From: a virus
DNA length: 28,713 nucleotides
Strand: one strand, 5' to 3'
Virus record (IMG/VR): IMGVR_UViG_3300013104_000067
Location: 1-28,713 of that record
Part shown: piece after piece, positions 4,777 to 7,709 of the stretch
How the letters are laid out: each line of letters opens with the position of its first letter
Position numbering within the stretch: position 1 is the stretch's first letter
The notes under the pieces: model-generated
Databases searched by the model: none
The model's input: only the letters and a program-made list of their open reading frames with translations
What the model was told of the DNA's origin: nothing
Program-made: the position numbers and the translations under genes

Positions 4777-4805
4777 AGTAAAGCAGCGCTTTAGTTTCAA
4801 GTCAA
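4777..4805 (-). promoter_or_regulatory. Leftward early promoter (PL)
   Basis: Read on the minus strand there is TTGACT (4805-4800), a 17-bp spacer, then TTTACT (4782-4777). Both hexamers fit sigma70, with the -10 at 4/6. One operator overlaps the -35 and another lies in the spacer and touches the -10. The layout matches the rightward promoter at 6127-6155 almost base for base. Confidence 0.75.
4781..4791. promoter_or_regulatory. Operator AAGC-AGC-GCTT at PL
   Basis: One of five AAGCNNNGCTT sites in the window. It lies in the PL spacer and touches the -10, so binding there would block transcription of the leftward operon. Its centre is 23 bp from the second PL site. The likely ligand is the S24-type repressor or the Cro-like protein. 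Confidence 0.75.
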
Positions 4806-4814
4806 GCGATGCTT
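4804..4814. promoter_or_regulatory. Operator AAGC-GAT-GCTT at PL
   Basis: The second PL operator shares its inner end with the -35 hexamer TTGACT on the minus strand. It is identical in symmetry to the sites at 6075, 6118 and 6141. Confidence 0.75.
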
Positions 4815-4837
4815 AAGAAATTTGTCCGAGCCAATAG

Positions 4838-4862
4838 AAAAGCCCCGCCGGAGCGGGGCTTT
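4838..4862 (-). terminator. Intrinsic terminator after the lipoprotein gene
   Basis: AAAGCCCCGC (4839-4848) pairs with GCGGGGCTTT (4853-4862) around a 4-nt loop. On the minus strand the stem is followed by TCTATT after its TTT end. It separates the repressor/lipoprotein transcript from PL. Confidence 0.8.
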
Positions 4863-4881
4863 GGTCGCGATGATCTGTTGA

Positions 4882-5346
4882 TTACTGGGCGTCCGCGGGA
4901 GCCAGTCTGGTTCGAACGCGCTCTAGAGCCGCTTGAGTTTCGTTCTGAACATTGTTGCCAGTCAGGCGCTGTGACCGAACCTGGCCGAACGCCATCTGGG
5001 TTTCGACCATCTGATATGCGGTCAGGAAGACGCCATGATTCTGCTTAGCGAAGGTGAATTGGATGCTCACCTCCGGAGTCGTGGAGTAGGAGTTGCCGAT
5101 TAGCGTCTGTGTTAGCGCTGCCTGCATCCCCTGCATTTGCATCTTGCAAGCCACCGTATTGCTGGTCACGTTGGCCGATCCACCCATCTCTGCGCAGCGC
5201 AGGACTAGGTCATCTCGGACCTGCTCCGTATCGACAAATGGAATGAAAACCTCAGCGTTCCCGGAAGCGGTTGGCTTATTGAGAGCCTGTTGTGTCGCGC
5301 AGCCAGTGAGTGCGACTGCAGCTGCGACTATCGCAAGGTACTTCAT
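4882..5346 (-). CDS. Lipoprotein encoded behind the repressor gene
   Basis: A 154-aa protein with a lipoprotein signal peptide: MKYLAIVAAAVALTGC, lipobox LTGC with Cys16 as the lipidated residue and Ala at +2, predicting the outer membrane. The mature part has two further Cys (in VLRCAEMGG and VACKMQ), possibly a disulfide, and a beta-like C-terminal half. The ATG at 5346 has AGGGGG 4-5 nt upstream. It lies 71 bp downstream of the repressor stop with no terminator between, and a terminator follows it. It would therefore be made in the lysogen, like lambda rex or other conversion genes. Superinfection exclusion at the cell surface is a reasonable but untested guess. Confidence 0.8.
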   Translation of the reverse strand: MKYLAIVAAAVALTGCATQQALNKPTASGNAEVFIPFVDTEQVRDDLVLRCAEMGGSANVTSNTVACKMQMQGMQAALTQTLIGNSYSTTPEVSIQFTFAKQNHGVFLTAYQMVETQMAFGQVRSQRLTGNNVQNETQAALERVRTRLAPADAQ

Positions 5347-5417
5347 GATTCCCCCTGGGTCCTTTGATTCTCGATGAACGTCTTCCGTGCCAGCCGATCC
5401 AAGACTGCCGGAATAGG

Positions 5418-6095
5418 TCAGTTGAATCGGTCTATTCGATTTCTGAGGTACACCTTGCCGCCGATGACCGTGTTGCGAGGCATAGCGAACGCCGGATAGA
5501 GCGCAGCGTTAGCGCTGACCACGTACACGGCATCGCCCCGATCCTGAAGGGCCTTCACCTGCTGCCCGTTCCCGGTATTGAGCAGGTAGATCCCATCACC
5601 ATCGAAAGAGGTCACCCCAGTGTCGACCATCAAGGACTCGCCGGGGTTGATAACCGGAATCATAGAGTCGCCGCGACCCGTCACCAGCACCAGCCTGCCT
5701 GGTGCCGGAACGAACCCAACAATCGACCGGATGTAGGTGGGCGCGAAGTCCATCGCTCGGACAATGTCCGGAAAATCATCATTGATACGCCCATCCCCCA
5801 TGTCGGCATCTCCGTCCAGCTGTTGGACGCGAACATAGCTTTGGTCGGTCGCAGAAATCGCGACGACATCCACTGTCTCACCCATGCCGAAGTGAGACAG
5901 GGGCTTGCCTGTGAGATGCGCGAGCTTCGGGAGCTTTCGCTTATCGACCTTCCCTGTGCGAAGCCACCCGGAGACAGCCTGCTCCGTCACGCCAAACGCG
6001 TCCGCGACACCTTTTTGTGTCAGCGGGGACTCTTCAATGGCCGAGCGAATGGCGGCCGCCATAGCGGTGTTGTCAAGCATCGCTTGATTGTCCAT
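5418..6095 (-). CDS. CI-like phage repressor, HTH plus S24 peptidase domain
   Basis: A 225-aa transcriptional repressor that should maintain lysogeny. The N-terminal HTH spans about residues 25-50 (LTQKGVADAFGVTEQAVSGWL). The C-terminal LexA-like domain has the catalytic Ser144 in GRGDSM and Lys181 in QQVKAL. No Ala-Gly or Cys-Gly dipeptide, the usual self-cleavage site, occurs between them. The ATG at 6095 is kept; internal Mets at 6080 and 6062 are possible starts and have no better ribosome binding site. The gene diverges from the Cro-like gene, with three AAGCNNNGCTT operators at or near its 5' end, one within its first codons, which implies autoregulation. Confidence 0.92.
   Translation of the reverse strand: MDNQAMLDNTAMAAAIRSAIEESPLTQKGVADAFGVTEQAVSGWLRTGKVDKRKLPKLAHLTGKPLSHFGMGETVDVVAISATDQSYVRVQQLDGDADMGDGRINDDFPDIVRAMDFAPTYIRSIVGFVPAPGRLVLVTGRGDSMIPVINPGESLMVDTGVTSFDGDGIYLLNTGNGQQVKALQDRGDAVYVVSANAALYPAFAMPRNTVIGGKVYLRNRIDRFN
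6075..6085. promoter_or_regulatory. Operator AAGC-ATC-GCTT inside the repressor start
   Basis: This site lies in codons 4-7 of the repressor gene, 43 bp centre to centre from the next operator. Occupancy would hinder repressor transcription just after initiation, as a negative-autoregulation site would. Confidence 0.65.
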
Positions 6096-6108
6096 CGGCC
6101 TATGCGCG

Positions 6109-6136
6109 AATGTAAGAAAGCATTGCTTGACTGCAA
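6109..6136 (-). promoter_or_regulatory. Candidate repressor maintenance promoter (PRM)
   Basis: On the minus strand: TTGCAG (6136-6131), a 16-bp spacer, TACATT (6114-6109). The -35 is poor (3/6) and the -10 fair (4/6), as expected for a promoter that needs activation. The operator at 6118-6128 lies in its spacer. The start would be only about 7 nt before the repressor ATG. Confidence 0.45.
6118..6128. promoter_or_regulatory. Operator AAGC-ATT-GCTT at PR/PRM
   Basis: This site overlaps the -35 of the rightward promoter and sits in the spacer of the candidate repressor promoter. It is 23 bp centre to centre from the site at 6141-6151, the same spacing as the PL pair. Confidence 0.8.
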
Positions 6137-6155
6137 ACTAAAGCAACGCTTAAGC
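6127..6155 (+). promoter_or_regulatory. Rightward early promoter (PR)
   Basis: TTGACT (6127-6132), a 17-bp spacer, then TTAAGC (6150-6155). The -10 is weak by consensus, but the arrangement with two operators copies PL. The expected transcription start, about 6162, falls on or next to the ATG at 6163, so the first message may be leaderless. Confidence 0.65.
6141..6151. promoter_or_regulatory. Operator AAGC-AAC-GCTT at PR
   Basis: The second PR operator lies in the spacer and reaches the -10. With the site at 6118-6128 it forms a pair that would occlude RNA polymerase at PR. Confidence 0.8.
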
Positions 6156-6162
6156 TGGCGTC

Positions 6163-6660
6163 ATGAACCCAATCGCCACCGCCATCGAGAAGTCGGGAGC
6201 CGGTCAAGCCGGAATCGCTCGCCTGTTGGGGGTATCCCCGCAGGCGGTAAACCAGTGGGTAAGCGGCATCAGGCCTGTTCCGTCTCGCCACGTGCTCGCC
6301 ATTGAAGCTGCAAGTGGGATTTCCCGCCATGAACTTCTCCCTGAGGTGTTCGGGCCAGCTCCAGGGGCCGTCGCTCCGCTCAGTTCTGGAACATCCAGTT
6401 CCCAGGCTCCCTCGGTCCTTGTTGACAGTCGCATGAGCAAGCGCGCGCTGCGCGCCAAGCTGGGCCTGAGCACCGACAAGCAGTTGGCCAAGGTTCTGAA
6501 GTTGCCGTTGGAGCAGGTGAGCGGTTGGGCGGATGACGAGATGGTCCCGGCCTTGCCGCAGGTAATGAGGCTGCTTGGACACCCCGTGCAGCTGGAGCCG
6601 GCCAAGCCGGCCAACGACGACCCCGATGCAGACCGCATCGCGCCAATTGAGGTGGCCTGA
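6163..6660 (+). CDS. Cro/YdaS-like regulator with a C-terminal extension
   Basis: A 165-aa DNA-binding protein. Residues 1-65 match the YdaS/Cro-like HTH pattern (IEKSGAGQAGIARLLGVSPQAVNQWVSG, then ISRHELLPEVFG, the usual end of these short proteins). After a Ser/Pro linker, residues about 88-150 add a second helical unit (SKRALRAKLGLSTDKQLAKVLKL..VSGWA), which looks like another HTH-like repeat. Typical relatives are 70-90 aa, so this is a long form. It is the first gene from PR and divergent from the repressor, the classic cro position. No Shine-Dalgarno sequence is visible before the ATG. Confidence 0.85.
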   Translation: MNPIATAIEKSGAGQAGIARLLGVSPQAVNQWVSGIRPVPSRHVLAIEAASGISRHELLPEVFGPAPGAVAPLSSGTSSSQAPSVLVDSRMSKRALRAKLGLSTDKQLAKVLKLPLEQVSGWADDEMVPALPQVMRLLGHPVQLEPAKPANDDPDADRIAPIEVA

Positions 6661-7178: not shown

Positions 7179-7709
7179 ATGACCTGCCGTACTTCCTCGC
7201 TCAACTGGCTCGACAACCTCTACAACTCCGTGCGCGAGACGCCGGGAGGTGTGGAGGCTGCAGCTGCGTACCTGGCCCAGCGCCGGGGCAAGTCGATGCA
7301 TCCCGAGACGCTGCGCGCCAAGTTGCGCGGTCTGGAGGGTGAGTCGGTGACGCTCCAGATCGCCGAGTTGCTGACCGAGTGGATGCAGGAACAGGCGGGC
7401 GGTGGTGAGCGTGCGCTGGGTTGGCTGCAGTCGTTGGTAGCGCGTTTCGGCATGGCCGCCGACGTGGTGCCGCCGGCGCCGGAGGGCGGCTGGTCCGACG
7501 AGATCGGCGCCATCCAGATGAAGCTGCTGGAGATCACCAGTCGGGTCGGGAAGCTGTCCGGTACTGCGGTGGAGGCCATCGCCGACTCGACCATCACGAA
7601 CGCAGAGGCCGAGCAGATGATTGCCGAGATCCGCGCGCTGCGCACGATGGCCAATCGCTTGGAGCGCAACGTCGCGCGGGCTGCGGCGAAGGGGAGGGTG
7701 GCGCGATGA
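7179..7709 (+). CDS. CII/YmfL-family phage regulator
   Basis: A 176-aa protein matching the phage regulatory CII/YmfL pattern. The N terminus LNWLDNLYNSVRETPGGVEAAAAYLA is followed by the conserved MHPETLRAKLRGLEGESVTLQIAELLTEWMQ, an HTH that binds DNA. The rest is helical (EIRALRTMANRLERNVARAA). Family members are transcriptional regulators between the immunity genes and replication genes. The ATG at 7179 has AAGGTG upstream, and the stop overlaps the next start (ATGA). In lambda terms it fits the cII position and may activate lysogenic promoters. Confidence 0.8.
   Translation: MTCRTSSLNWLDNLYNSVRETPGGVEAAAAYLAQRRGKSMHPETLRAKLRGLEGESVTLQIAELLTEWMQEQAGGGERALGWLQSLVARFGMAADVVPPAPEGGWSDEIGAIQMKLLEITSRVGKLSGTAVEAIADSTITNAEAEQMIAEIRALRTMANRLERNVARAAAKGRVAR

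Follow-up and report, generated by a model that had tools for sequence, protein, structure and literature searches.

The window (the whole 28,713-nucleotide stretch of viral DNA analysed here, in itself a virus record) contains two divergently oriented genes coding for a CI-type and a Cro-type protein, both with an HTH domain, an arrangement shared with the immunity regions of lambdoid phages. The cI-type repressor gene lies on the minus strand (5418 to 6080; 220 aa from the revised start discussed below) and codes for a protein with the HTH helix TEQAVSGWLRTGK, whose recognition helix reads EQAVS-W-RTGK, and an S24 peptidase C-terminal domain recognized by Pfam (PF00717, 47 bits; phrog_4, 8.5e-32). 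On the plus strand, the cro gene (6163 to 6660) codes for a 165-aa protein of the YdaS/Xfaso 1 type and is followed by a gene for a CII-like regulator of the CP76 type (Phage_CP76; 7179 to 7709, plus strand; PF06892, 34.6 bits; phrog_101) and an O-like replication gene. The minus strand also carries a lipoprotein-like cargo gene (4882 to 5346; phrog_3152) in the interval from cI to OL, the position of rexAB in lambda. The nearest cellular relatives were found in Stenotrophomonas and Xanthomonas. In the loci L087 to L133, the slot between cI and OL was hypervariable: where the window has the phrog_3152 lipoprotein (4882 to 5346), many relatives code for zinc-ribbon membrane proteins of ∼290 aa, and L109 for an exonuclease-like protein. 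Possibly, this interval is a superinfection-exclusion or moron slot.

Counting over the window located the motif AAGCNNNGCTT at 4781, 4804, 6075, 6118, and 6141, exactly where the initial annotation had placed it. The two OL sites (4781 to 4791, AAGCAGCGCTT, and 4804 to 4814, AAGCGATGCTT), a pair kept in relatives, overlap the -10 and -35 elements, respectively, of a promoter PL predicted from the sequence on the minus strand (4777 to 4805; -35 TTGACT at 4805-4800, 17-bp spacer, -10 TTTACT at 4782-4777). On the other side of cI, OR3 (6075 to 6085, AAGCATCGCTT) is centred on the predicted ATG of cI (6080-6078, minus strand), while OR2 (6118 to 6128, AAGCATTGCTT) and OR1 (6141 to 6151, AAGCAACGCTT) cover the -35 and -10 elements of the predicted plus-strand promoter PR (6127 to 6155; -35 TTGACT at 6127-6132, 17-bp spacer, -10 TTAAGC at 6150-6155). 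As had been claimed, both the PL pair and the PR pair (OR2 and OR1) measured 23 bp from centre to centre, and TTGACT as well as AAACTAAAGC occurred in both promoters; OR3 and OR2 are 43 bp apart. Since one operator lies over each -35 element and the other over each -10 element, 23 bp is a spacing that promoter geometry also imposes. The -10 elements of PL and PR are weak, and a strict consensus sigma-70 scan called no promoter at either position, so that both promoters rest on conservation and on TTGACT.

Seven matches to AAGCNNNGCTT were present in the whole window compared to 0.40 expected, and none of the shuffled sequences reached seven. Clustering of five sites within 1.37 kb had an approximate Poisson probability of ∼1e-11 at a rate of 0.4 per 28.7 kb, a value to be read with the caveat that the motif was picked after the data were seen. 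The two further copies, at 487 and 3804, had not been listed before; we judged them to be chance occurrences, as they are single, unpaired, and outside the set kept in relatives.

A third promoter, PRM, was predicted on the minus strand between OR3 and OR2 (6087 to 6115; -35 TTACAT at 6115-6110, 17-bp spacer, -10 GACAAT at 6092-6087), with its start at 6080. Across the 23 loci in which OR2 lies at exactly 43 bp, conservation reached 1.96 bits at the -10 element (ATTGTC, i.e., minus-strand GACAAT) and 1.68 bits at the -35 element (ATGTAA, i.e., minus-strand TTACAT), with a variable sequence of 0.50 bits in the 17 bp between them. This is how a promoter starting at 6080, with OR2 at -43, would be expected to look. 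The 6080 ATG, which marks the middle of OR3, was found in every locus of the alignment (these had been selected for it), and the distant repressors L136 and L141 likewise have their ATG inside a similar palindrome. At 6095, from which the initial annotation had read a 225-aa repressor, several relatives have no ATG but CCG, GGG, TTC, or CTC, and that start is probably wrong. We therefore predict that cI probably starts at the 6080 ATG and is expressed from PRM as a leaderless transcript coding for 220 aa. Conservation of OR3 could also stem from coding, if selection acted on the D-N-Q-A-M-L-D-N stretch of a 225-aa protein read from 6095 and no operator were present; the frame upstream of 6080 is indeed open in the window and in relatives. 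However, the replaced codons at 6095, the identity of the OR3 palindrome with the word found at the other four sites, and a similar word at the same ATG of the distant L136 and L141 make this explanation very improbable.

The sites were retained in close relatives, where OR2 and the third OR site are 43 or 44 bp apart. The operator pair was present in 35 of 37 nonredundant repressors with EQAVS in helix 3 versus 1 of 15 without it (Fisher p 1e-9, which overstates independence because the loci are related). The sole carrier of the pair without EQAVS (L134) is on a contig cut inside the helix, while the two exceptions with EQAVS are L141, with one arm changed, and L142, an unrelated protein with no sites. 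Helix and operator were also kept in L135 to L140, which share 33 to 39% of the N-terminal domain and about 13 to 20% of the C-terminal domain, and five sites were kept in L132 and L133, in which the DNA-binding domain is the same but is followed by an unrelated, non-S24 C-terminal domain. Conversely, relatives with the same CI C-terminal domain and another HTH had no AAGC sites and a different operator set instead. In L132, whose repressor has no recognizable S24 domain, the PR side upstream of cI holds three copies of AAGCNNNGCTT (at -90, -67, and -48; 23 and 19 bp apart) besides a one-mismatch OR3, i.e., an extra operator.

In principle, Cro (or a complex) might be the main or sole reader of the sites, with CI binding other DNA, comparable to the partly distinct CI and Cro sites of some telomere phages. 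The Cro helix SPQAVNQW likewise contains Q-A-V, and the N-terminal domain of Cro changes along with the operators. Yet loci with a different Cro (helix TPAAVGQW in L136 and L138) still show joint conservation of CI helix and operator, and the CI DNA-binding domain switches with the code; we thus regard exclusive or predominant reading by Cro as quite unlikely.

Specificity of the motif was assessed in host genomes. Single AAGCNNNGCTT motifs occurred 80 to 115 times per genome versus 53 to 79 times for the reversed motif (three host genomes), and being so frequent, a lone site means little. In contrast, a scan for pairs, which the initial annotation had suggested for related prophages, was run across 91 Stenotrophomonas genomes (about 390 Mb) and detected 12 pairs with 23- or 24-bp spacing, confined to 8 genomes, versus none for the reversed motif, and comparison of pair coordinates with a repressor search revealed that every one of them (12/12) adjoins a cI gene related to that of the window. 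This answers the refuting condition named in the initial annotation, i.e., equal frequency of the motif elsewhere in the prophage and host genome. That the motif is a commonplace word of the genome, or belongs to a host regulator and happens to lie near phage promoters, as the abundance of host singles above the control might suggest, is hardly conceivable given the confinement of pairs to these cI genes and the loss of AAGC sites upon exchange of the CI DNA-binding domain. One locus, L095 (JAHREJ010000035.1), is titled Bacillus subtilis SK7B5 and has the Stenotrophomonas-type immunity region of the window; since G074, from the genus set of Stenotrophomonas, contains a pair identical to that of L095, this title looks mislabelled.

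Specificity, conservation, and co-variation with the repressor DNA-binding domain strongly support the operator reading of the five sites, including the earlier suggestion of a complete operator set for one repressor/Cro pair. With a probability of roughly 0.9, the sites would be OL and OR of a temperate Stenotrophomonas (Xanthomonadales) phage, i.e., the operators of its lambdoid-type lysis-lysogeny switch.

Like lambdoid CI/Cro immunity regions, the window has repeated palindromes over PL and PR at a spacing of about 23 to 24 bp. The closest layout was that of HK022 (X16093): as in the window, cI and cro are divergent, OL has two operators and OR three, paired sites (the OL pair and OR1-OR2, each with a 24-bp spacing in HK022) lie over the -35 and -10 elements, and the centre of OR3 falls on the start codon of cI. 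The two CI proteins are 31% identical over 88%. However, the operators of HK022 are of the TGAAC..GTTCA type rather than AAGC-N3-GCTT, OR2 and OR3 are 33 bp apart instead of 43 bp, and the Cro of the window is of the YdaS type and much larger. The HK022 sites contain no AAGCNNNGCTT, and the window does not belong to the HK022 specificity. The HK022 repressor has reportedly been the subject of earlier work. A two-turn operator spacing, which the initial annotation had regarded as unlike lambda, does not set the window apart, as the OR centres of lambda are separated by 23 and 24 bp and the five sites of HK022 are laid out in the same way. OR2 of lambda lies 42 bp upstream of the start of cI (37982 to 37940), comparable to the 43 bp by which OR2 of the window lies upstream, and cI of lambda begins directly at the PRM start. 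What does differ from lambda is the sequence of the operators and the place of OR3, which lies on the cI start codon in the window but upstream of it in lambda; besides, two OL sites are visible instead of three, and cro is predicted to be leaderless, unlike in lambda. The immunity code, described as new looking, is therefore new in operator sequence but not in layout. Among the phage records of the collection, no DNA match to the immunity region was found beyond short chance pieces.

The Cro protein matched PF15943 with 59.2 bits (cutoff, 30), which places it in the YdaS/Xfaso 1 family. Its N-terminal domain resembles the Cro of Xfaso 1, a Xylella prophage (3bd1), by sequence (phmmer E 1.9e-4) and weakly by fold, and matches YdaS of CP-933P (8c7k) weakly by fold; both were among the fold matches, none of which was below E 0.001. 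Studies of Xfaso 1 Cro and of Cro recognition codes have reportedly been published. Unlike Xfaso 1 Cro and YdaS, the Cro of the window has an extra C-terminal helical domain, for which the structure model (moderate confidence, pLDDT 65) showed four helices. This domain of ∼75 residues is conserved, and relatives carry it behind many different N-terminal HTHs, although some lack it; an HTH-like part was noticed at window positions 6436 to 6597 (residues about 92 to 145). Our guess is that it serves as a further DNA-binding or dimerization domain. Several relatives whose CI has the S24 domain have a short Cro of 73 to 84 aa, and a strict tie of the C-terminal domain of Cro to the S24 domain of CI was therefore dismissed. 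For comparisons of Cro across relatives, only entries with a clear HTH were used, as the longest-ORF rule had misframed some. In most relatives, OR1 and the cro ATG were separated by 10 to 11 nt with no Shine-Dalgarno-like run in between, and the cro mRNA is therefore predicted to have little or no leader. YdaS acts as Cro, and the repressor gene opposite it is leaderless (PMC8630535); repression of both PRM and PR via shared operators is known for YdaS of CP-933P only (PMC8630535).

In such a switch, each AAGC-N3-GCTT palindrome would be bound by a CI dimer through the helix TEQAVSGW, and adjacent dimers on the 23-bp pairs would cover the -35 and -10 elements of PL and PR, turning off both early operons. 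From OR2, whose centre lies at -43 relative to the predicted start of PRM, CI may activate its own leaderless transcript, while occupation of OR3, on both the PRM start and the cI start codon, by Cro or excess CI would shut off PRM. Cooperativity of CI and use of the same sites by Cro are likewise presumed. Regarding cooperative CI binding and RecA-stimulated self-cleavage, which would be expected of a lambdoid repressor, the S24 domain is present.

Relatives carrying the window's CI C-terminal domain with another DNA-binding domain displayed at least four other operator codes: ACAG-4-CTGT (L020/L126), AAAC-5-GTTT (L022), TACC-4-GGTA (L021/L023/L026/L093), and AGGA-2-TCCT (L130). These sets mostly comprised three OR and two OL sites, some with one mismatch, with OL pairs 23 to 25 bp apart, and when each of 21 loci was shuffled 20 times, a strict search retrieved no such set. 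A group with the helix NPQA[IV]TGWER (L092, L119, L121, L123, L124, L127, and L131) has AAGC-N3-GCTT at OR1 and mostly at OR3, and AACC/GGTT arms at OR2 and, in some members, at an OL site; it may be intermediate between codes. At even odds, we propose an exchangeable cassette in which the CI DNA-binding domain, the three OR sites, the N-terminal domain of Cro, and the two OL sites (>1 kb away) switch together between at least five codes, including AAGC-3-GCTT, while the C-terminal domain of CI, often that of Cro, and the 23- to 25-bp geometry stay constant.

The system thus represents a known kind of switch with a new specificity, and defines an immunity specificity of Stenotrophomonas and Xanthomonas prophages that is readable from sequence. 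The more interesting part than the specificity itself is the set of operator codes on a constant chassis: natural swaps of repressor DNA-binding domains with matching operator sets, which make it testable how a phage changes five operators, CI, and Cro together.
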